From assembly GCF_017875735.1 (NCBI RefSeq), contig NZ_JAGGMZ010000001.1, positions 1,922,001 through 1,986,000 on the forward strand: 64,000 bases of DNA, in the 5' to 3' direction. The position numbers and the translations under genes were made by a program. This DNA is from Arthrobacter sp. CAN_C5. GTDB lineage: Bacteria; Actinomycetota; Actinomycetes; Actinomycetales; Micrococcaceae. Shown piece by piece: positions 33,073 to 43,001 of the stretch. Every line of letters begins with the position of its first letter. The first letter of the stretch is position 1. The notes under the pieces were generated by a model. The model was not told the DNA's origin. It worked only from the letters and a program-made list of their open reading frames with translations, and made no database searches.

Positions 33073-33432
33073 CTAGCCGTGGATGGGTTCCCCGCTCACG
33101 CGATGATCTGCAAGATTCATGCCCTCACGTACCAGCCGGGCCAGATGGCCGTCGGCGATGCTATACACAACGCGCTGGCCTTCTTTTCTTGTGGTCACCA
33201 GACCCGAGAACCGAAGTTTTGCAAGATGCTGGCTCACAGACGTCCGCGAGGCAGCGGTGTGATCTACCAGGGCGGTCACATCGGCCGGTGACTGGGTGAG
33301 GAGCCATAACAGGTGGAGCCGGGTAGGGTCTGCGAGCATTTTGAACACGGCTGCTCCCGCCTCCAGCCGCAGGTCATCCGGGGATCCAGAATGGTGCAGG
33401 CTCGGCTCCGGCTGTAACTGGCGGTCAGTCAT
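33073..33432 (-). CDS. ArsR/SmtB-family transcriptional regulator
   Basis: 119 residues from the ATG at 33432, which overlaps the stop of the transporter gene (ATGA). The winged helix is clear: VFKMLADPTRLHLLWLLTQS, then SRTSVSQHLAKLRFSGLVTT and a wing GQRVVYSIADGHLARLV. No ELCVCDL-type cysteine metal site is present and no cysteine occurs near the recognition helix; a few His (LADHRVSGEPIHG) lie at the end, so sensing of zinc or a non-metal ligand is possible. Co-transcribed with the MFS gene and likely controls it. Confidence 0.88.
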   Translation of the reverse strand: MTDRQLQPEPSLHHSGSPDDLRLEAGAAVFKMLADPTRLHLLWLLTQSPADVTALVDHTAASRTSVSQHLAKLRFSGLVTTRKEGQRVVYSIADGHLARLVREGMNLADHRVSGEPIHG

Positions 33433-34670
33433 TGATGTGCCTCCTGGACAGTCGCTGTTTCCCCGGAAACCGGGCTCCAACCTCGAGGCCACAGCTTCAG
33501 TGCCGCCAATACCCCCAGTGTAGCCAGGCCCGCAAGAATCCCTGCCGTTGCCTCTTGCCCCAGGGTCGCCCCCAACCACCCCGCGATCGGGTAGGTCAGG
33601 ATGAAACAGGCGTGCGACAGCGAGAACTGGGCGGTGAAAAGGGGGGCCCGCGACGCGCTGGTGGCAGCTCTCCTGAGTAGCCGTGCAGATGGGGTGTTGA
33701 TCATAGAGGTCCCAGCACCCAGCACAGTCCACACCGCGAGCAGAAGAACCCAGGACTGCCCAGCAGCGGCAAGCACCCCGGCCAATCCCAGGCCTAGTGA
33801 GATCACACCGCCTCCCGCAATCATCAGGGTTCGATCCGTCACGCGGTCAAGAAGAGGTGGAACCGTGAGGGCGACAGCCATGGAACCTGCGCCGTAGCAG
33901 GCCAGAGCAATGGCAAGGTCGGTATTTGTTCCTTCGAACAGCTCCAATGCGTAGACAACGGTGTTCACCAGCACAAGGGCAGTCCCGCAGGCCACGACAA
34001 AATTCAGCGCCATGAGTCCACGGAGGGTCGGCTCACCAAGAAAAATTCGCGTACCGAGGGTGGTCCGGTGAAGAACCGAGGCGCGTTGTACGGTGATCTG
34101 CTGAGGGGGTAGTGGGGTGGCGACGACCATCGCGGCCGACAGGAGGAAACCCACAGCGGTGCCGACGAAAAGGAGGTGAAAGCTCATGAAAGTCAGGAGC
34201 GCCGCCGCCAGGATCGGGCTGAGTACTGACTCCAGATCATAGGCGAGGCGGGAAAGGGACAGCGCCCGGGTATAGTCGCGCTCCCGCGGTAGAAGCGTTG
34301 GAATCAACGCCTGGAACGCGGGTGTGAACGTTGCCGATGCGGACTGCAAAATGAACACCAATAGGTAGATCTGCCAGACCTGATCGACCAACGGCAACGT
34401 GAGTGCTATACCAGTGCGCATCAGATCCGCGCCGATCAGGACGGCCTTCCGGGGTACCCGTTCCACCAGTACCGCCATGACGGGTGCAACGAAAACGTAG
34501 GCCAGCATCTTAATCGTCAGAGCCGTTCCGAGCACCGTCCCGGCCCGCGCGCCCGCCAGATCATAGGCGAGTAGACCCAGGGCAACGGTGAGGAGACCCG
34601 TTCCCGCCAAGGCCACCACCTGGGCCGTGAAGAGTCGTCTGTAGGCGGTCACCCTGAGTACTTCAAGCAC
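33429..34670 (-). CDS. Major-facilitator-superfamily exporter
   Basis: 413 residues, 12 predicted helices. MFS features: LLAYDLAGARAGTVLGTALT, VFVAPVMAVLVERVPRKAVL (loop 2-3 motif), ASATFTPAFQALIPTLLPRE and the helix 5 region. Resembles NreB/EntS-type and 'ArsR-associated' MFS exporters. First gene of a two-gene unit with the ArsR regulator; the promoter and a palindrome lie upstream at 34730-34758. Substrate (metal, antibiotic or siderophore) unknown. Confidence 0.88.
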   Translation of the reverse strand: MLEVLRVTAYRRLFTAQVVALAGTGLLTVALGLLAYDLAGARAGTVLGTALTIKMLAYVFVAPVMAVLVERVPRKAVLIGADLMRTGIALTLPLVDQVWQIYLLVFILQSASATFTPAFQALIPTLLPRERDYTRALSLSRLAYDLESVLSPILAAALLTFMSFHLLFVGTAVGFLLSAAMVVATPLPPQQITVQRASVLHRTTLGTRIFLGEPTLRGLMALNFVVACGTALVLVNTVVYALELFEGTNTDLAIALACYGAGSMAVALTVPPLLDRVTDRTLMIAGGGVISLGLGLAGVLAAAGQSWVLLLAVWTVLGAGTSMINTPSARLLRRAATSASRAPLFTAQFSLSHACFILTYPIAGWLGATLGQEATAGILAGLATLGVLAALKLWPRGWSPVSGETATVQEAHQ

Positions 34671-34734
34671 GAAGTGTCCTCTCGGTCAAAGGGGCGAGCC
34701 GTCCGGAACGAAACAGCTTGCATCCCCTTCAGTA

Positions 34735-34758
34735 TATGTGCACACGTTCGCACACATA
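34735..34758. promoter_or_regulatory. Palindromic operator/promoter of the MFS-arsR unit
   Basis: TATGTG-N12-CACATA is symmetrical and lies 65 bp before the MFS start. On the minus strand it overlaps a TATACT -10 box at 34730-34735. Size and position suit an ArsR-family dimer that blocks its own promoter. Low GC compared with the surroundings. Confidence 0.55.
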
Positions 34759-34853
34759 AGCACAGCGTGATCAGCGCATAAACAAATACCCGAATTATGA
34801 CCCGCAATTGATGGAAGTTACTTCCTATTAATTGCTGGTCTGCGCATTGTGCA

Positions 34854-34859
34854 TATACT
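34854..34859 (+). promoter_or_regulatory. -10 box (TATACT) of the organosulfur operon
   Basis: TATACT with TTGCTG 16 bp upstream (34832-34837) as -35 box. Transcription would begin at about 34866, right where the predicted riboswitch aptamer starts. The nearest plus-strand gene follows 277 bp later. Confidence 0.6.
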
Positions 34860-34866
34860 GGGGACA

Positions 34867-34945
34867 GCTTCAAGAGACGCGGTCGTAAAGCTCCGACTGG
34901 ACCGCGCACCAACCCCATGTTCGTGGGTGGTTCGGATGACGAAGC
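34867..34945 (+). promoter_or_regulatory. Probable SAM riboswitch aptamer (SAM-IV / SAM-I-IV-like)
   Basis: P1 GCTTC (34867-34871) pairs with GAAGC (34941-34945). Inside: AAGAGAC, a P2 hairpin CGGTC...GACCG with internal GTAAAGCTCCGACT, the CCAACCCC...TGGGTGG hairpin, and GTTCGGATGAC closing the core. From memory this follows the actinobacterial SAM-IV pattern (ATGAG, the AAGCCCCGGCTT-like internal stretch, CAACCC...GGGTG, CCGGRTGAYGACC) in order and spacing. Downstream, CTCGGT/ACCGAG (near 34956-34977) and TCCGGG/CCCGGA (35094-35099 with 35118-35123, eight bases before the GAGGAA ribosome-binding site) could form the expression platform. It precedes an operon of sulfur-scavenging type, as expected for SAM repression. 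Confidence 0.65.
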
Positions 34946-35142
34946 GGCCTTCGCCTCGGTAATTACCAGACCGAGCCGGCGCAGGCAAGAGCACTTCGAA
35001 AGGCGTACCTCGTGAGTTGTCCGGCTAGCCGTTCCATTTCCTGATAATTATGCGCTAACAATTCAGCGCTGATTCGACCCCCTTTATTCTTTCTCCGGGT
35101 AGTGCCTTTAGTGTGCCCCCGGACCGCACCGAGGAATAGCAC

Positions 35143-36819
35143 ATGAACAATAAAGCGCTCCATCCTGCCCACAATTCCCAGCGACCGCAGGGCAGAATAG
35201 CCATTCTCGCGTCGCTCCTCGTAGCCTCCCTGGTGAGCGGTTGCGCTGCGTCCGCCAACCCGGCTGCGAACCCGGCTGTTGACCCGGCCTCGGATCCCGT
35301 GTCTGGTGGCATCCTCGACGTGTCGATCTCGGCCGAGCCGGGTTGCCTCGACGGACACGGCATCTCAGCGACCCAGCAACAGTTCCTGGGGAGGCTGATC
35401 TACGACAATGTGGTCACCCTTGACGACGACGGCGAGATAGCTCCCTATCTCGCGGAGTCGTGGGAAATTTCCGACGACGGCAAGACGTACACCTTCCACC
35501 TCAAGGAGGGAGTCACCTTCAGCGACGGCTCCCCCTGGAACGCCGAGGTGTTTGGGCTCAATCTGGAGCACATGAGGGATCCAGCGACCAAGTCCCCCCT
35601 TGCCGCCGCCTACATAGCGCCCTACGTCGACGGCACGGTGATTGATGAGTACACGTTCGAGGCACACCTGGAGTACGCCTACACACCCTTCCTCTACACG
35701 CTGGCCCAGTCGTGGCTTGGTATGAACTCCGGCAAGGCCATCCTCGAATCCCCTGACACTCTCTGCCAAGAGCCGATCGGAACGGGCCCGTTTACCGTTG
35801 CCGACTACCGCCCTGGCCAGGGCATCAGCTATACCAAACGGGAGGGGTACGACTGGGCACCGGAGTGGCTTGAGGGTGACGGCGAGGCCTACCTTGATGG
35901 GGTGGAGGTCACCCTGGTGGGTGAGCCGGTCATCCGCCACCAGTCCCTCGTGTCCGGGCAGTATGACCTGACGGAGAACCTGGCCCCGCAGAACGCTGCC
36001 GCGGTCGACGCAAACCCGGACTTCACCTACGAGAATTTGGTGCGCACCGGCAGCCCCAACGTGCTCAGCTTCAACCTGAGCCGTGCACCCTTCAGCGACC
36101 AGGCCGTCCGCGAGGCGTTCGTGGCTGCCATCGACACGCAGGCGGTCACCCAAAGTCTCGGCTTCGGCACGTTCACACCGACCGACAGTTTCCTGTCGAC
36201 GGCAAGCAAATACTACGATCCGGCGGTTGAGGGGACCCTGCACCACGACCTGGAGAAAGCGAATCAGCTCCTGGACGACGCTGGCTGGACCGGCCGCGAC
36301 GACGAGGGGTTCCGGACCAGGGACGGCGAGCGCCTCGTCATCGACGTGCCCACTGTCGAGAGCACCACGCCTAACCCCCTGCTCGTCCAGCTGCAGGGTG
36401 AAGCACGGAAGGCCGGCTTCGACCTCCAGATCATCCAGTTGCCGCAAGCACAGCTGAGCGAACTGCGGTACGCCGGTGACTATGACGCGCTGGCCGGCGT
36501 GTGGCACACCAACACCACCGACGTGCTGTTCATCAGGTATCACTCCTCGGAGATCACGGGAGAGCGAATCGGTCAGAACTCCTCCTATGTGGATGACCCC
36601 ACTCTCGATGACCTTCTCCTGGCGGCCCGGGCGGCCGATGACGGGCAGATCGCCGACGAAGCCTACTCGGAGGTCCAGCACCGGTTGCTGGACATTGTGC
36701 CTGGCCTGCCGCTGCACGAAAACCCCAGCCAGTTCGCCTACTCCAATGCGGTGCGGGACGTTGCCGTGGACACCTCTCACCCCGTCCCCGTCCTGACCTA
36801 CGCCTGGAAGGCGGAGTAG
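35143..36819 (+). CDS. ABC-transporter substrate-binding lipoprotein (SBP_bac_5, dipeptide/nickel/organosulfur type)
   Basis: 558 residues. Lipoprotein signal with lipobox LVSGC (Cys34). The SBP family 5 core follows: GGILDVSISAEPGCLDGHGI, IYDNVVTLDDDGEIAPYLAE, SWEISDDGKTYTFHLKEGVT, FSDGSPWNAEVFGLNLEHMR and later GTGPFTVADYRPGQG. Captures an oligomeric or organic solute outside the cell for the permeases that follow. GAGGAA precedes the ATG. First gene after the SAM-type leader; 0-bp gap to the permease. The sulfur-related substrate is inferred from the leader and from the two flavin enzymes at the operon end. Confidence 0.9.
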   Translation: MNNKALHPAHNSQRPQGRIAILASLLVASLVSGCAASANPAANPAVDPASDPVSGGILDVSISAEPGCLDGHGISATQQQFLGRLIYDNVVTLDDDGEIAPYLAESWEISDDGKTYTFHLKEGVTFSDGSPWNAEVFGLNLEHMRDPATKSPLAAAYIAPYVDGTVIDEYTFEAHLEYAYTPFLYTLAQSWLGMNSGKAILESPDTLCQEPIGTGPFTVADYRPGQGISYTKREGYDWAPEWLEGDGEAYLDGVEVTLVGEPVIRHQSLVSGQYDLTENLAPQNAAAVDANPDFTYENLVRTGSPNVLSFNLSRAPFSDQAVREAFVAAIDTQAVTQSLGFGTFTPTDSFLSTASKYYDPAVEGTLHHDLEKANQLLDDAGWTGRDDEGFRTRDGERLVIDVPTVESTTPNPLLVQLQGEARKAGFDLQIIQLPQAQLSELRYAGDYDALAGVWHTNTTDVLFIRYHSSEITGERIGQNSSYVDDPTLDDLLLAARAADDGQIADEAYSEVQHRLLDIVPGLPLHENPSQFAYSNAVRDVAVDTSHPVPVLTYAWKAE

Positions 36820-37752
36820 GTGGGCATGGCACGGCGGATCCTGTTCCGGCTGGTAATCGGGCTCGGAGTCCTGTGGGGGGCGGCCACCATGACTTTCCTT
36901 GCCGTCTACCTCATCCCCGGCGACACCGCCCTCCTGATTCTTGGCGGACCCGATGCCCGCCCCACCGCAGAAACCCTCGCCCAGGTGCGCAGCGACTACC
37001 TGCTCAACGAACCCCTGATCGTGCAGTACGCCAGTTACCTGGGCAACCTGCTGCAGGGAGACCTGGGGCAGTCCTACCGCCTCCGGATCCCCGTCACCGT
37101 TGCGATCGGGCAGCAGATCGGTGCGACGGCGATGCTCGCCGCCGCGGCTGCGTTCGTCGCCCTGCCACTGACGGTGCTCGTTGCCGTGCTTTCCGCCCAG
37201 CGGTCCCCCTGGGTTCGATCAATCGTGTCCGGGATCGAGGTGGTGCTCGCCGCAACACCCACCTTCATCATCGGTTTCGTCCTGCTGATCGTCTTCTCCT
37301 TCACCCTGCGCTGGTTTCCCATCGGAGGGGATCAGGGTGTCATCGCCCTGATCCTTCCGGCGCTGACCCTGGCGTTGGCGGTGTTCGGAACGCTCTCACA
37401 GGTGCTGCGCAACGAGCTGGAAGATGTTTTGGAGCAGCCGTTCATTCTGACGGCCCGCGCACGCGGCATGCGGGACCTCCCGGTTCGTATGCTGCACGCG
37501 CTCCGGCACGCCGCCATCCCTGTGATGACCCTGTCGGGGTTCGTTGTTGCCTCCCTCTTCGGCGGGTCGGTGATTGTCGAGACCCTGTTCAGCCGGCAGG
37601 GAATCGGCGCCCTGACCCTCGCCTCTGTCTACAACAAGGACCTGCCGGTGATCATCGGCATCGTTCTCCTGTCGGCAGCCGTCTACGTGGTGGTCAACCT
37701 GGCGGTCGACCTCCTTTACACGCTCATCGACCCGAAAGTGGTGACCTCTTGA
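36820..37752 (+). CDS. ABC-transporter permease (DppB/OppB type)
   Basis: 310 residues with six membrane helices. It opens MGMARRILFRLVIGLGVLWG and has the family VYLIPGDTALLILGG (here '..PGD' loop), VLRNELEDVLEQPFILTARA and the EAA loop ARGMRDLPVRMLHALRHAAI that docks to the ATPase, then GGSVIVETLFSRQGIGAL. GTG start directly after the stop of the binding-protein gene; the ATG two codons later is an alternative. First of two permeases forming the channel. Confidence 0.92.
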   Translation: MGMARRILFRLVIGLGVLWGAATMTFLAVYLIPGDTALLILGGPDARPTAETLAQVRSDYLLNEPLIVQYASYLGNLLQGDLGQSYRLRIPVTVAIGQQIGATAMLAAAAAFVALPLTVLVAVLSAQRSPWVRSIVSGIEVVLAATPTFIIGFVLLIVFSFTLRWFPIGGDQGVIALILPALTLALAVFGTLSQVLRNELEDVLEQPFILTARARGMRDLPVRMLHALRHAAIPVMTLSGFVVASLFGGSVIVETLFSRQGIGALTLASVYNKDLPVIIGIVLLSAAVYVVVNLAVDLLYTLIDPKVVTS

Positions 37753-38573
37753 GCATCCTCTCCCAGACAGCGCGACGCCCCGGGCTGCTCCTTGCCACCG
37801 GCTTCCTCCTCTGGCTCACCGCAGCAGTCCTGGTGCCGGGCGTGCTCGCCAGCGCCGACCCCTATACCGTCAATCCGGCGCGCAGCTTCGAGGCGCCCAA
37901 CCCCACGGCCCTCTTTGGGACCGATGACTCAGGGGCGGACATCTACTCCCGGATCGTGCACGGTGCTGCGACGTCCCTCTACATCGGGCTGGGTGCGACC
38001 GCCATCGGGCTGGTCGGCGGGACGGCCATCGGTTTGCTTGCCGGATTGAACGGCCGGCTCGTCGAAGCCTCGGTTATGCGGGTCCTGGACGTGACCCTTG
38101 CCATCCCCGAGATCCTCCTTGCCCTGGTGGTCATCGGCATCATCGGCGGAGGCACCGAGAACGCGATCCTGGCCATCGGGGCGGGCAGCGTCGCCTACTA
38201 CGCCCGCATCACCCGGGCCCAGACCCATCTGGTCCGCCGCTCCGGCTACGTCGAAGCGGCCGGCACACTCGGGCTGCGCCGCGGCCAGGTTCTGCTCACG
38301 CATGTCATTCCCAATGTCATGAAGCCGGTGCTCGTCCTGGCAACCATCGGCGTCGGCTCCGCCATTGGCGCGGGGGCGTCCCTGAGCTTCCTGGGTCTGG
38401 GCACTCCACCCCCGGCGCCGGAGTGGGGCGCGATGCTGTCCGTTGGCCGCAATTTCATCACCAACGCGCCGTGGATGATCACCCTCCCCGCCGCATTCCT
38501 TGTCGCCACCGTACTATCCATCACCGTGATCGGGCGCGAGCTCCGACGCCGAGCAGAAGGAAGAGTCCAATGA
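37749..38573 (+). CDS. ABC-transporter permease (DppC/OppC type)
   Basis: 274 residues from a TTG start overlapping the previous stop (TTGA). Characteristic FGTDDSGADIYSRIVHGAAT, SLYIGLGATAIGLVGGTAIG, DVTLAIPEILLALVVIGIIG, EAA loop AAGTLGLRRGQVLLTHVIPN, and GAGASLSFLGLGTPPPAPEW near the end. Six membrane helices. A longer open frame reaching back to 36873 is antisense-like and unlikely. Forms a heterodimeric channel with the preceding permease. ATGA overlap with the ATPase gene. Confidence 0.9.
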   Translation: MSILSQTARRPGLLLATGFLLWLTAAVLVPGVLASADPYTVNPARSFEAPNPTALFGTDDSGADIYSRIVHGAATSLYIGLGATAIGLVGGTAIGLLAGLNGRLVEASVMRVLDVTLAIPEILLALVVIGIIGGGTENAILAIGAGSVAYYARITRAQTHLVRRSGYVEAAGTLGLRRGQVLLTHVIPNVMKPVLVLATIGVGSAIGAGASLSFLGLGTPPPAPEWGAMLSVGRNFITNAPWMITLPAAFLVATVLSITVIGRELRRRAEGRVQ

Positions 38574-40369
38574 CCGCCACAGCCGCCACAGCACTCGCCA
38601 CCCGGGAGCCCACCCCGTCCGCCATCCCTCTTCCCTCCCCCCTGGTCGAGCTCGCGAACCTCACGGTCGACTTCGGTAGGGGTACCCGCCGACACCGTGC
38701 CGTGAACGACGTCAGCCTGTCGGTCCTGCCGGGCGAGTGCCTCGCCCTGGTGGGTGAGTCCGGCTCCGGCAAGTCCGTCACCGCGCGGACCCTGGTCGGG
38801 TTGACCGGTCACGGCTCCCAGGTGAGCACCCGCTTCCAGAGGTTCAACGGGCAGAACGTAACCGGCTGGGGCGAACGGCAGTGGAGCCGGGTACGGGGCA
38901 AGGACGCCGGCTTCATCCTGCAAGACGCCCTTTCGTCCCTTGATTCCCTGCGGACAGTGGGAAAGGAGGTGGGTGAGGTACTGCGACTCCACTCGCTGTT
39001 CTCCCGCGTCGAACGCGACCGCCGCATCATCGAACTCCTTCGGTCGGTAGGGATCCCGGACCCGGAGGTCCGCGCTTCCCAGTACCCGCATCAGCTTTCG
39101 GGCGGGCTCCGGCAACGGGCGCTCATTGCGTCGGCCATCGCCGCTGAGCCGGGCCTCCTGATCGCCGACGAGCCGACGACGGCGCTCGACGCGACCATCG
39201 CGGCCCAGGTCCTGCGCTTGCTGGGCGACCTGAAGGGCGGCAGTACCGGCATGCTTGTCGTCAGCCATGACCTGGCCGTCGTTGCCAACCTGGCGGATCG
39301 GGTGGCAGTCATGCGCCAGGGCGAAATTGTCGAGGAAGGAACCATGGAGGCGGTCCTCCTGGACCCGCAGCATCCTTACACCAAGGGCCTCCTGGCCGCC
39401 ATTCCCTCGGCGGCCTCCCGGGGGTCCCGGCTGACGGGCCCACTCACACGTGTCGACTCACCCACGCCAACCAGAACGCCAGCACGAGTCAGGACACCGC
39501 AACCAGCCAAAACATCGGTACCAGGCAGTACACCGGAACGAGGCAGTACGGCGCTCCTCACGGCCGACCGCATCCACAAGAGCTACCCGGACTCGGGTGG
39601 GACCTCGCGCACTGCAGTGGCCGGGGTGTCCTTCCAGCTGCGGAAAGGATCCACCCTGGGCATCGTCGGTGAGTCAGGCTCGGGCAAGAGCACTGTGGCA
39701 CGGATGGTGCTGGGCGTCGAGGCTCCCGACGCCGGCAGCGTCCGGTTCCGTGGGCGCACCTGGCGGGAGCACCACGAGCAGAAGAACCGTCGCGCACGCC
39801 GCGCCGTCCAGATGATCTACCAGGATCCGCTGCACTCCTTCGACCCCCGGAAGACCGTCCGACAGGTCATCGGCCAGGCCGTCGCCGCGGCCGGGGTCCC
39901 ACGAACCGCGCGGGACCACCGTATCCGCGAGCTGCTGGCCCTCGTGGGACTGGGCGAGGACAAACTCCGTAGCCGTCCCCTTGACCTCTCGGGCGGACAA
40001 CGGCAACGGGTAGCGATTGCGCGGGCGCTGGCCGCCGAACCGGAGATCATTATCTGTGACGAGCCTGTCTCGGCCCTCGATGTGTCGGTGCAGGCCACCA
40101 TCCTGGACCTGTTCTCCGAACTCCAGGAGCGTCTGGGCCTCGGTTACCTCTTCATCTCCCATGACTTGGGGGTGATCCAGCACCTCAGCCAGGACGTCCT
40201 GGTGATGAAGGACGGGGAGGTTCTCGAACGGGGCACGGTCACGGCCGTCTTCGATACGCCGCAACACCAGTACACCCGTGACCTGATCAACGCCATCCCC
40301 CAACTTCCCATCACCCCACTTTCTACCACCCCACTCCCCGCCACCGGACAGGACGGAACCCGCTCATGA
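38570..40369 (+). CDS. Fused double ABC ATPase (DppD-DppF in one chain)
   Basis: 599 residues from the ATG at 38570 overlapping the permease stop. Two full nucleotide-binding domains. First: Walker A GESGSGKSVT, signature LSGGLRQRALIA, Walker B LLIADEPTTALD, H-loop SHDLAV. Second: Walker A GESGSGKSTVA, signature LSGGQRQRVAIA, Walker B IIICDEPVSALD, H-loop SHDLGV. They are joined by a 70-residue Pro/Thr/Arg-rich linker around residues 280-330. Most relatives use two genes; the fusion enforces a heterodimer. Powers import through the preceding permeases. ATGA overlap with the monooxygenase. Confidence 0.93.
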   Translation: MTATAATALATREPTPSAIPLPSPLVELANLTVDFGRGTRRHRAVNDVSLSVLPGECLALVGESGSGKSVTARTLVGLTGHGSQVSTRFQRFNGQNVTGWGERQWSRVRGKDAGFILQDALSSLDSLRTVGKEVGEVLRLHSLFSRVERDRRIIELLRSVGIPDPEVRASQYPHQLSGGLRQRALIASAIAAEPGLLIADEPTTALDATIAAQVLRLLGDLKGGSTGMLVVSHDLAVVANLADRVAVMRQGEIVEEGTMEAVLLDPQHPYTKGLLAAIPSAASRGSRLTGPLTRVDSPTPTRTPARVRTPQPAKTSVPGSTPERGSTALLTADRIHKSYPDSGGTSRTAVAGVSFQLRKGSTLGIVGESGSGKSTVARMVLGVEAPDAGSVRFRGRTWREHHEQKNRRARRAVQMIYQDPLHSFDPRKTVRQVIGQAVAAAGVPRTARDHRIRELLALVGLGEDKLRSRPLDLSGGQRQRVAIARALAAEPEIIICDEPVSALDVSVQATILDLFSELQERLGLGYLFISHDLGVIQHLSQDVLVMKDGEVLERGTVTAVFDTPQHQYTRDLINAIPQLPITPLSTTPLPATGQDGTRS

Positions 40370-41802
40370 CCCGCCAGATCTCCTTCAACCTCTTCGAAAT
40401 GAACTGCGTCGGCCACATTTCCCACGGACTATGGGTACATCCGGAAAACAACCGGCACCGGTTCAATGACCTCGACTTCTGGGTGGAGACCGCCCAGATC
40501 CTGGAAGCCGGACTGTTCGACAGCGTGTTCCTCGCCGATGTGATCGGGACCTACGACGGCTACCGCAACGGTCCCGACACGGCGCTGCGGGAAGCGGTGC
40601 AGATCCCCAGCAACGACCCGCTGCTGATCATCCCGGCAATGGCGGCCGTCACTAAACACCTTGGCTTCGCGGCAACCTTCTCCACGACCTACGAACCCCC
40701 GTTCGCTTTCGCCCGGCGCGCCTCGACGCTGGATCACCTGACGAAGGGGAGGTTCGGCTGGAACATCGTCACCTCCTACCTGCCGAACGCGGCACGCAAT
40801 TTCGGGTTGGCCGACGAAGTGGAACATGACCAGCGCTACGCGATCGCCGACGAATACCTCGATGTGCTGTACAAACTGTGGGAAGGGTCGTGGGACGACG
40901 ACGCCGTGATCGAGGACCGCGCCCGGCGGGTCTACACGGACCCCGCCAAGGTGAGATACATCAACCATCGGGGGCCCAACTATTCGGTGGCAGGTCCCCA
41001 CCTCAGCTCGCCATCGGTCCAGCGCACCCCCGTGTTGTTCCAGGCCGGCAGTTCGACGGCGGGCAAGGAGTTCGCCGCGAAACACGCCGAGGGCGTCTTC
41101 GTGGGCGGTCGTGACGCCGCCGCCTACCGGGAGAATGTCCAGGACCTCCGCCGCCTCGCCGTTGCGAAGGGGAGGCAGGCTGACCATATCAAGGCTTTCG
41201 CCAGCGCCGTCGTCATCGTCGGGCGCACCCACAAGGAGGCCCAGCGCAAGGCTGAGGAGTACCGCAGGCTGTCGAGCGCCGAGGGGTACCTGGCCCACGC
41301 CGGCGGCGGTGGGATCGATCTGGCCGCCTACCGCAGCGACGAGGTGATCGACGATATCCTCGCCCGGGAGAACCGCCCGGGAAGGGACAGCCAGCCCAGC
41401 AGCCGGCGGCACCCGCCCGGTACAACCGTTGGTGAGGCGCTGGAGCGGATCACCCGGTTTGATCGGGGTCCCTTCGTCGCCATCGGCACCGCGGTGGAGG
41501 TCGCAGACGAAATCGAACGGTGGATCGACGCCACCGACCTGGACGGTTTCAACCTGCGGCAGTTCCTTACCCCCGGCACCGCAGAGGACTTCATTACCCA
41601 GGTAATCCCGGAACTCCAGCGGCGCGGCCGGTACCGGACCTCCTACGAGGAGTCCACCCTCCGGGAGCGGCTGTTTGGCAGCGGAAACACCCGCCTGTTC
41701 GACGAGCATCCCGGCGCCCGGTACCGCGGTGGGGCGAATCTGGATCATGGAGCGGCCCTTGATCTGGCCGATTCCCCCGCCTACGCCGGGAGCCGGTCAT
41801 GA
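40366..41802 (+). CDS. FMN-dependent LLM-class monooxygenase (NtaA/SnaA/SoxA/DszA type)
   Basis: 478 residues. Luciferase-like fold with ISFNLFEMNCVGHISHGLWV, WVETAQILEAGLFDSVFLAD, family-specific LDHLTKGRFGWNIVTSYLPN (riboflavin-phosphate-binding turn), NYSVAGPHLSSPSVQRTPVL and FQAGSSTAGKEFAAKHAEGV. This subfamily (nitrilotriacetate, pristinamycin, dibenzothiophene-sulfone and other organosulfur monooxygenases) needs FMNH2 from a separate flavin reductase, which is not encoded here. In this operon it probably opens a C-S bond of an imported compound. Start and stop overlap both neighbours by four bases. Confidence 0.88.
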   Translation: MTRQISFNLFEMNCVGHISHGLWVHPENNRHRFNDLDFWVETAQILEAGLFDSVFLADVIGTYDGYRNGPDTALREAVQIPSNDPLLIIPAMAAVTKHLGFAATFSTTYEPPFAFARRASTLDHLTKGRFGWNIVTSYLPNAARNFGLADEVEHDQRYAIADEYLDVLYKLWEGSWDDDAVIEDRARRVYTDPAKVRYINHRGPNYSVAGPHLSSPSVQRTPVLFQAGSSTAGKEFAAKHAEGVFVGGRDAAAYRENVQDLRRLAVAKGRQADHIKAFASAVVIVGRTHKEAQRKAEEYRRLSSAEGYLAHAGGGGIDLAAYRSDEVIDDILARENRPGRDSQPSSRRHPPGTTVGEALERITRFDRGPFVAIGTAVEVADEIERWIDATDLDGFNLRQFLTPGTAEDFITQVIPELQRRGRYRTSYEESTLRERLFGSGNTRLFDEHPGARYRGGANLDHGAALDLADSPAYAGSRS

Positions 41803-42962
41803 CCGATCTGCTGCAGCACTTCCGCCCGATCTTCGCCGAGATCGCCGCCGGCGCGGTGGACCGGGAACTACGTCGCGAGCTTCCCTTCGCGGAGGTAGAG
41901 CTTCTCAAGAACGCGGGGTTCGGAGCGCTAAGGATCCCGTCGACCCATGGCGGCCTGGGAGCCACTCTGCCGCAGCTGTTTGAGCTCCTCACGGAACTGG
42001 CCGCCGCTGACTCCAACCTCACCCAGCTGTGGCGTGGGCACTTCGCCTACGTCGAGGGTGTGCTCCTCCGTGACGCCTCGACATCACGGGATGCCTGGCT
42101 CCGGGACATTGCGGGCGGAGCCATGGTGGGCAACGCCTCCAGCGAGTTGACCGGCACATCCCTGCGCGACATCAGCACCACTCTCACATCCACCGAGGCC
42201 GGGCTCACGCTCAACGGCTCAAAGTACTACAGCACCGGTGCGCTGTTCGCCGACTGGATCGCGGGCAGCGCGGTCCACGACGGGCAGCGCGTGGGCTACG
42301 CGGTGTCGGCCACCGCGCCGGGAGTGGATCGTATCGACGATTGGGATGGGATCGGTCAGCGGCTCACAGGCAGCGGCACCACCCACTTTTCGGAGGTGGC
42401 GGTGGCGTCGGAGAACGTCCGTCCTTACACCCCCGGGGAACCGAACCATGTGCCTGCGTTCTTCCAACTGGTGCTCGTGGCGGCCCTCGCGGGGATTGCC
42501 CGGGCCGCGGCCGACGACGCCGCCTCCTTCGTGAGGCCACGCACCCGCTCGTACGTGAACGCTACGGCGGCCCTACCGCGTGAGGACCCGCAGGTGTTGG
42601 CGGTACTCGGCGAGCTCTCGAGTACCTCGTTCGCCGCGGCGGCCACGGTTGCGGCGGCGGCGCGGAAGCTGGAGGCCGCCCGCTGGTCACTCGCCTCCGG
42701 GCATCCTGACGACGCGAGGGCCGCGGTGGATGCCGCGGAGATCGCCGTAAGCCAGGCGCAGATTGTCTCGGTCAGTCAGGTGCTCAACGCCACCAGTCAC
42801 CTGTTCGAGGTGGGCGGCGCGTCGGCCACTGCTGCCGGGCGCTCCCTGGACCGGCACTGGCGGAACGCCAGAACCGTCTCCTCCCACAACCCGGCCATCT
42901 ACAAGGCTAGGGCAGTCGGATACTGGGCCGTGACGGGAACCCGGGAGCCGCTCCCTGACTAA
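41799..42962 (+). CDS. Acyl-CoA-dehydrogenase-fold flavin oxidoreductase (SfnB/DszC-like)
   Basis: 387 residues. Acyl-CoA dehydrogenase N-terminal helical part (FAEVELLKNAGFGALRIPST), middle domain with IAGGAMVGNASSELTGTSLR and GLTLNGSKYYSTGALFADWI, and a C-terminal four-helix domain with AARKLEAARWSLASGHPDDA and the end ARTVSSHNPAIYKARAVGYW. The missing catalytic Glu of true acyl-CoA dehydrogenases and the C-terminal HNP signature match SfnB/DszC-type enzymes, which use reduced flavin and O2 on sulfur or nitrogen compounds. Last gene of the SAM-controlled operon, followed by a terminator. Confidence 0.85.
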   Translation: MTDLLQHFRPIFAEIAAGAVDRELRRELPFAEVELLKNAGFGALRIPSTHGGLGATLPQLFELLTELAAADSNLTQLWRGHFAYVEGVLLRDASTSRDAWLRDIAGGAMVGNASSELTGTSLRDISTTLTSTEAGLTLNGSKYYSTGALFADWIAGSAVHDGQRVGYAVSATAPGVDRIDDWDGIGQRLTGSGTTHFSEVAVASENVRPYTPGEPNHVPAFFQLVLVAALAGIARAAADDAASFVRPRTRSYVNATAALPREDPQVLAVLGELSSTSFAAAATVAAAARKLEAARWSLASGHPDDARAAVDAAEIAVSQAQIVSVSQVLNATSHLFEVGGASATAAGRSLDRHWRNARTVSSHNPAIYKARAVGYWAVTGTREPLPD

Positions 42963-42976
42963 GTAGCTGGCGGAAC

Positions 42977-43001
42977 GTCGGCTGGTGACCTCTCAGCCGA
43001 C
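42977..43001. terminator. Bidirectional hairpin terminator
   Basis: GTCGGCTG (42977-42984) pairs with CAGCCGAC (42994-43001), loop of nine bases, between convergent genes: 14 bases behind the oxidoreductase stop and five bases before the kynureninase stop. Confidence 0.6.

Follow-up and report, generated by a model that had tools for sequence, protein, structure and literature searches.

The 64,000-nt stretch of the Arthrobacter sp. CAN_C5 genome analysed here (hereafter, the window) holds a six-gene operon encoding an ATP-binding cassette (ABC) importer and two flavin enzymes. The operon is preceded by a leader that carries a riboswitch aptamer of the SAM-IV class, which probably senses S-adenosylmethionine (SAM), and by a very short upstream open reading frame (uORF). 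The best explanation of this arrangement, and one that we consider probable, is an organosulfur scavenging operon repressed by SAM through a switch that acts via the uORF. The features of the locus are the following.

34854..34859, + strand: -10-like hexamer TATACT, kept in aligned leaders
34868..34997, + strand: SAM-IV riboswitch aptamer (RF00634), from the Rfam covariance model and compensatory pairs
34998..35003, + strand: Shine-Dalgarno-like GAAAGG of the uORF, directly 3' of the aptamer
35012..35044, + strand: tiny uORF, GTG to TGA, MSCPASRSIS*, with counterparts in aligned leaders
35046..35074, + strand: predicted hairpin H1, core GCGCU/AGCGC, z = -3.5, just past the uORF stop
35131..35136, + strand: Shine-Dalgarno GAGGAA of the substrate-binding protein gene, predicted to pair with an upstream pyrimidine tract
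35143..36819, + strand: substrate-binding protein (SBP), SBP_bac_5, from profile and homology matches
36820..37752, + strand: permease 1, Opp/Nik B type, BPD_transp_1, from profile matches
37749..38573, + strand: permease 2, Opp/Nik C type, BPD_transp_1; its TTG start overlaps the preceding stop
38570..40369, + strand: double ABC ATPase, Opp/Dpp type, from profile matches
40366..41802, + strand: flavin mononucleotide-dependent, luciferase-like monooxygenase (LLM), NtaA/DmoA family TIGR03860, grouping with LadA
41799..42962, + strand: SfnB/DszC/MsuC-like flavoprotein of the acyl-CoA dehydrogenase family

An earlier note on this DNA had described six fully coupled genes for a peptide-type importer, an LLM and an SfnB/DszC-like oxidoreductase. 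The coupling is as described: at four junctions start and stop overlap by 4 nt, and at the fifth the gap is zero. The family matches agree with the gene assignments. The LLM matches Bac_luciferase and passes the TIGR03860 cut-off (521.1 bits against 279.7); it is the one match above this cut-off in the genome. The acyl-CoA-dehydrogenase-like flavoprotein is nearest to SfnB and DszC, and scores 145.1 bits against the DszC equivalog NF043015, below its cut-off of 850. Eight proteins of the genome match the SfnB equivalog TIGR04022, none of them above the cut-off, and the operon's protein is by far the best.

The aptamer matches RF00634 at 34868-34997 on the plus strand with 63.5 bits (E 6.8e-09; gathering threshold 38) over the full model (1-116 of 116), and is the sole gathering-level Rfam match in the window. 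This agrees with the SAM-IV class that the earlier note had read into the leader. The extent given there, 34867-34945, leaves out P4 and the 3' tail, up to 34997. Homologous leaders also show the compensatory changes expected of a structured RNA: in an RNAalifold consensus of 17 leaders, 8 of the 35 pairs are changed on both sides, in the P2 and P4 regions, as a raw count taken without a slid or shuffled control. The Rfam P1 lies outside this consensus, and its bases are invariant. At operon heads of the genus the aptamer scores 56-64 bits, while other SAM-IV riboswitches of the genus reach 117.8 bits. Three SAM-IV riboswitches are present in the genome, a single contig of 3.86 Mb: one ahead of a metX-like gene, one ahead of a MetQ-like gene (both labels rest on reading translations) and that of this operon.

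As for the promoter that the earlier note had placed at 34854, the hexamer TATACT is present. Of 15 aligned leaders, 12 have TATA[CGT]T at its position; genomes G015 and G030 have TACAGT there and G027 has TAGAGT. A sigma-70 scan of 34700-35200 gave no full promoter match, so that the transcription start site is unproven. An intrinsic-terminator scan of the same interval returned a single terminator-like match, at 34813-34825, upstream of the aptamer. A T-rich element (TCATATTTCTT or similar) precedes the hexamer in 10 of the 13 leaders printed; it is less clear in G008 and in the window, is not seen in G015 and G030, and may possibly be a regulator site.

Conservation was assessed within Arthrobacter (A. 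agilis group) by comparing 38 genomes of the genus, that of the window included. Fifteen of them encode an LLM orthologue with at least 83% identity, and in all 15 a SAM-IV aptamer stands at the head of the operon (56.3-63.5 bits; 56.3-61.1 in the 14 others), counting across a contig break for G020, whose operon is split over two contigs. The order SBP, permease, permease, ATPase, LLM and SfnB is kept in 12 of the 15, again with G020 counted. G009 has no SfnB gene behind its LLM. The LLM is the first gene after the riboswitch in G006 and G027. Enzymes such as an LLM and an SfnB-like flavoprotein depend on a partner for reduced flavin. Two of the 15 genomes, G015 and G030, have such a flavin reductase gene beside the operon and divergent from it, under a SAM-IV aptamer of its own (PF01613, 108.8 bits in G015; the G030 protein is 91% identical to it). 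Elsewhere in the genus, the first gene behind SAM-IV is a DmoA-side LLM paralogue in L109 and L110. In L112 (by Pfam) and L113 (by reading) it is of the AmiS/UreI type, with an SfnB paralogue after it.

Directly behind the aptamer, all 15 leaders carry G[AG]AAGG. A GTG or ATG lies 7-10 nt further and opens an ORF of 7-12 codons. The peptides include MSCTALP, MSCTTHRTIP, MSCNALPLP and MHRSCPLFPA. Beyond these leaders, locus L126 has a uORF encoding MSCTAFP with ATG in place of GTG; in L174, ATGA links a pair of tiny ORFs, of which the second encodes MNSCPS (read by eye). Taking the 15 leaders and L126 together, a Cys is kept in 15 of 16 uORFs, at codon 3 in 13 of them, and a Pro precedes the stop in 12; the window's peptide ends in Ser. 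The start changes from GTG to ATG in L126, G015 and G030, and the Cys codon from TGT to TGC in G020. Mean pairwise identity, in which a gap counts as a mismatch and to which the two LLM-led leaders contribute, is 0.86 over the aptamer, 0.63 from the ribosome site to the uORF stop and 0.32 after the stop. A hairpin after the uORF stop reaches z <= -1.4 in 12 of 15 leaders. The leader account of the earlier note was borne out for the aptamer; the conserved uORF at 35012-35044 and the 59% identity of the LLM to LadA had escaped it.

Where this aptamer type occurs in other genera, a larger gene has its start codon at about the position of the uORF start; 11 of the 16 matches printed show a MetE-like gene (named by reading) starting shortly after the aptamer tail. 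From these comparisons, what the switch controls is most likely the start of translation on the uORF. Moreover, since the conserved ORF starts right behind the aptamer, the SAM-IV switch probably gates a leader peptide. The layout known from riboswitch-gated uORF leaders of Mycobacterium tuberculosis, with ribosome site and uORF following the aptamer across species, is found in all 15 leaders and L126, and in tandem form in L174. Polycysteine uORF attenuators of mycobacteria have a run of Cys codons and a leaderless start. The uORFs described here do not belong to that type, having at most one Cys, a ribosome site and an aptamer upstream. Two loci of one genus in another family (L009, L015) have the short ORFs MTCRMPF and MTCRMRR between SAM-IV and a MetY-like gene (named by reading), which could be a second Cys-containing uORF behind SAM-IV.

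A switch of this kind could work as follows. When SAM is plentiful, the aptamer would close. The GAGCA of its 3' tail could then form a helix with the P3 loop, immediately next to the uORF's Shine-Dalgarno sequence. We read this pairing by eye; a pseudoknot of this kind is known for SAM-IV. With the uORF untranslated, the leader behind it would be open to premature termination, by Rho or at H1, and the operon would be off; alternatively, the ribosome site of the first gene might stay shut. When SAM, or methionine, is short, ribosomes would translate the uORF up to its stop, a few nucleotides before H1, and keep the leader open. This would allow synthesis of the importer and of the two flavin enzymes, the LadA-group monooxygenase and the SfnB-like protein. 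Using reduced flavin from a reductase encoded elsewhere in the genome, both enzymes would oxidise an imported organosulfur compound, and the sulfur released would feed cysteine and methionine synthesis. The sequence itself shows the aptamer, the operon and their conservation, the uORF and its ribosome site, the protein families, and SAM riboswitches ahead of homologues in two phyla. SAM binding, the direction of the switch, translation and role of the uORF, C-S cleavage and the nature of the substrate are what we infer from it, and the route from uORF to operon expression is our interpretation of the leader comparison.

In the window, pairing of the SBP Shine-Dalgarno is predicted at 0.95, against 0.70 in shuffles, 7% of which are equally high. 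A closed SBP ribosome site was considered as the switch and set aside, as over all leaders the pairing is little above shuffles. A Rho site was sought by the C/G ratio; C exceeds G in 14 of the 14 leaders measured, and the candidate was dropped because the window leader is not extreme.

The LLM itself groups with an enzyme of disputed role. Its nearest solved structure is LadA (3b9n; 557 bits, 59% identity); DmoA scores 437 bits, NtaA 197 and EmoA 160. In a 32-protein tree, LadA and the LLM of the window fall into one group with Bacillota rows, among them L190, L196, L197 and L200 (support 98/97). A tree of 48 rows places LadA, the window and L271-L295 together (93/92), with L296-L300 on the DmoA side. 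In a 2025 paper, alkane hydroxylation by LadA was not reproducible, and LadA showed no activity on ketones or dibenzothiophene sulfone; the same text maintains a possible part for LadA in long-chain alkane metabolism (PMC12449030).

SAM riboswitches also precede relatives of this LLM in Bacillota. The LLM scan yielded eight Bacillota loci, four of which carry SAM-I (L190, L196, L197, L199), directly ahead of the LLM in L197 and L199. A search with the L197 LLM through 299 genomes of the order to which Fredinandcohnia belongs gave 58 matches at E <= 1e-130, spread over 47 genomes, and we examined the 30 loci that were best by score. In 26 of these 30, SAM-I lies upstream on the same strand. The gap is 79-277 nt in 22 loci and about 1 kb in L296, L297, L299 and L300, where an SsuE-like gene lies between (the L297 locus begins at a contig end, and its raw gap figure is off). 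By tree side, SAM-I is present at 22 of 25 LadA-side and four of five DmoA-side loci. The flanks hold acyl-CoA-dehydrogenase-like matches in 18 of the 30 loci, MetN-like ones in 9 and SsuE-like ones in 4. L197 has two divergent arms, each headed by SAM-I: in one, an SsuE-type reductase (198.9 bits against a cut-off of 164.05) is accompanied by an acyl-CoA-dehydrogenase-like gene, and in the other the LLM by MetN-, MetI- and MetQ-like genes. The MetN- and MetQ-like proteins fall below their cut-offs and the MetI-like one slightly above; the acyl-CoA-dehydrogenase-like protein is only 26% identical to the SfnB-like protein of the window and has its best NCBIfam match in a family other than SfnB. 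SAM-I and SAM-IV are different classes within one Rfam clan (CL00012), and therefore we do not call them unrelated.

The presence of SAM riboswitches before LadA's relatives in two phyla suggests sulfur supply as a role for much of the LadA group. A bolder joint reading would make LadA-group monooxygenases a C-S-cleaving organosulfur family rather than an alkane family, controlled by SAM-IV in Arthrobacter, by SAM-I in Bacillota, and with interchangeable importers, the Arthrobacter switch acting through a riboswitch-gated, Cys-containing leader peptide. We put this forward only tentatively and think it rather doubtful, because L172, the row nearest to LadA, has no riboswitch in its locus and the Bacillota sample leans towards its query.

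Organosulfur uptake and oxidation, proposed in the earlier note, remains the best reading of the operon and is well supported as such. We favour it because the divergent flavin reductase of G015 and G030 has its own SAM-IV, because SAM-IV of the genus also precedes DmoA-side LLM and AmiS/UreI plus SfnB paralogues, and because the Bacillota relatives of the LLM lie behind SAM-I. Weakened is the weight that the earlier note had put on the gene combination, which is not special to the window. Among the best 80 of 580 related loci in a collection scan, the importer-LLM-SfnB set is also present, with some rearrangement, in Cellulomonas, Catellatospora, Pseudomonas, Acinetobacter, Nonomuraea and others. 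The large or peptide-like substrate was likewise too strong a claim: the SBP_bac_5-type importer family is broad, and the L197 homologue of the LLM is followed by MetN-, MetI- and MetQ-like genes.

Several results weigh against the reading. Among 46 loci, a model termed R1 found clear SAM-IV only in the Arthrobacter records L122, L123, L124, L126 and L174, and none in 34 loci of other phyla. Its one further match, in L132 (23 bits, E 0.036), begins exactly where the LLM match of that locus begins and was discarded as probably due to chance. Gathering-level Rfam riboswitches were absent from seven of eight loci with the same kind of operon (L174 excepted), from 11 of 11 Microbacteriaceae-type LLM loci and from the four Paenibacillus loci of the LLM scan (L172, L176, L177, L180); no clear SAM-IV match precedes the same operon outside Arthrobacter in the loci scanned. 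Hence, SAM control of this operon kind is lineage-specific. L172 is also the row nearest to LadA in the 48-row tree. Four of the 30 Bacillota loci (L289, L292, L293, L298) have no SAM-I upstream, and the 26 positive loci are not a random sample, because the query L197 itself has SAM-I. At the protein level, the SfnB-like flavoprotein misses the TIGR04022 cut-off (289.5 bits against 430.9) and is SfnB-like only, and the SBP reaches neither that of NikA, TIGR02294 (189.5 against 393), nor that of TIGR04028 (198.5 against 468.5). In the leader, G011 has Phe in place of the uORF Cys, H1 is weak or absent in G031, G019 and G006, pairing of the SBP ribosome site averages 0.79 against 0.69 in shuffles, and the C/G ratio of the window is 1.5.

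The role given to the uORF has two competitors, either of which we judge unlikely. The tiny ORF could be an incidental by-product of a leftover ribosome site, devoid of regulatory function, under ordinary translational or transcriptional SAM-IV control. This would be in keeping with the other genera, where a start codon in about this position is under direct control of the aptamer type, and with the inconsistency of H1 and of the closed SBP ribosome site across leaders. However, an incidental ORF would hardly explain why the uORF block is better conserved than the leader that follows (0.63 versus 0.32), or why the start codon is kept through GTG/ATG exchange and the Cys through TGT/TGC exchange. 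An alternative pairing of the uORF start with the 5' end of the transcript is strong in G000 alone of 17 leaders (0.86; 0.51 in G027, 0.38 in G008, 0.13 in G009 and at most 0.05 in the other 13), and we rejected it; these folds are weak evidence either way, because the Rfam P1 is rarely formed in them (<= 0.02 in 15 of 17). The other competitor, which we rate no higher, is a two-input device in which the Cys codon, and in many leaders the Pro before the stop, makes the ribosome report cysteine supply or halt at the stop, on top of SAM sensing. The near-constant Cys (15 of 16 single-uORF leaders), the frequent terminal Pro (12 of 16) and, in another family, the MTCRMPF and MTCRMRR ORFs that two genomes have between SAM-IV and a MetY-like gene all speak for it, as do the cys operons of Mycobacterium with predicted Cys-run leader peptides (PMC1262725). 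Yet the Cys is single and near the start, with no run near the stop; G011 has Phe, and the window peptide ends in Ser rather than Pro. Mutually exclusive hairpins were not found, in the course of folding that did not search for them systematically.

Two further alternatives concern the substrate, and both appear far less probable than those for the uORF. Catabolism of a chelator or another non-sulfur compound, of the NtaA/EmoA kind with a peptide- or nickel-type importer, could be invoked given that NtaA and EmoA belong to the same family, that the SBP resembles NikA and peptide binders, and that EDTA-degradation operons have peptide-type importers. It is nevertheless very improbable: the scores of NtaA and EmoA (197 and 160 bits) are far behind those of LadA and DmoA (557 and 437), and SAM control would make little sense. 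We give slightly less credit still to an operon for alkane or hydrocarbon oxidation, with the LLM as a LadA-type long-chain alkane monooxygenase. LadA is indeed the closest solved structure (3b9n, 557 bits, 59% identity), and the 2025 paper allows it a part in long-chain alkane metabolism while reporting its alkane hydroxylation as irreproducible (PMC12449030); the SAM riboswitches, the SfnB-like partner and the flavin reductases near relatives fit sulfur instead.

The aptamer type extends well beyond this operon. A model of the aptamer plus uORF start (R2) matched 219 of 345 genomes of the family, in 18 of 32 genera, at E <= 1e-8; the genes downstream were read for a small part of the matches. 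Elsewhere in the family, at L114:4183-4993, L115, L116, L118, L232 and L235, the same SAM-IV type is followed by a small ORF, of 56-75 aa where translated and with a DYE...FVDFLL-like motif, and by a PIN-domain protein. Pfam identified the PIN domain in the four proteins tested (L114, L115, L118, L232) and gave no match in the four small partners tested; the modules of L116 and L235 were recognised from translation, and those of L238, L240 and L251 from partial translations. The pair looks like a VapC-type toxin-antitoxin system behind a riboswitch, and is found at none of the three SAM-IV of the window's genome. In L241, L242 and L248 the aptamer type precedes an uncharacterised protein of 100-112 aa with a VLPxxDxxxG-like motif, which recurs behind the aptamer in several genera and in G021 of Arthrobacter (L243 and L244 were judged from their first codons). 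Next to the operon, genes for a major facilitator superfamily transporter and an ArsR-type regulator lie upstream on the opposite strand (33073-34670), and no link to the operon was seen.

Among known systems, the enzymes resemble those of SfnB/SfnG, DszABC and Ssu/Msu in pairing an LLM with an acyl-CoA-dehydrogenase-like flavoprotein, with a reductase nearby in some relatives. They differ in an LLM that groups with LadA, a flavoprotein that misses the SfnB cut-off, an Opp/Nik-type importer and riboswitch control. The substrate of such an uptake-and-oxidation operon should be within reach of a simple screen of sulfur sources. With LadA (3b9n) the LLM shares 59% identity and a common group in two trees, whereas the operon context and SAM-riboswitch control set it apart; sulfur supply would offer a testable physiological role for the enzymes around LadA, whose alkane role is disputed and whose alkane activity was irreproducible according to PMC12449030. 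What appears to be new is the conserved uORF behind SAM-IV and the sulfur role suggested for enzymes around LadA. In the literature searched we saw no mention of the operon, of its uORF or of relatives of LadA under SAM control, nor a paper joining a SAM-IV riboswitch and a monooxygenase, which is no proof of absence in print. Compared with SAM-IV at large (RF00634), the leader passes the curated cut-off over the full model and shares the core bases common to SAM-IV of the genus and order; its type is lower scoring and is followed by the conserved uORF. In Mycobacterium tuberculosis, riboswitches act through uORFs with Rho implicated, as reported in studies on B12/ppe2 (PMC11260477) and Mbox/pe20 (PMC12810186). 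Our leader shares with them an actinobacterial aptamer and a short uORF before an operon, and differs in its SAM-IV class, very short peptide and organosulfur operon, and in being known from sequence alone. It adds SAM-IV to the actinobacterial riboswitches that seemingly act via a conserved uORF.

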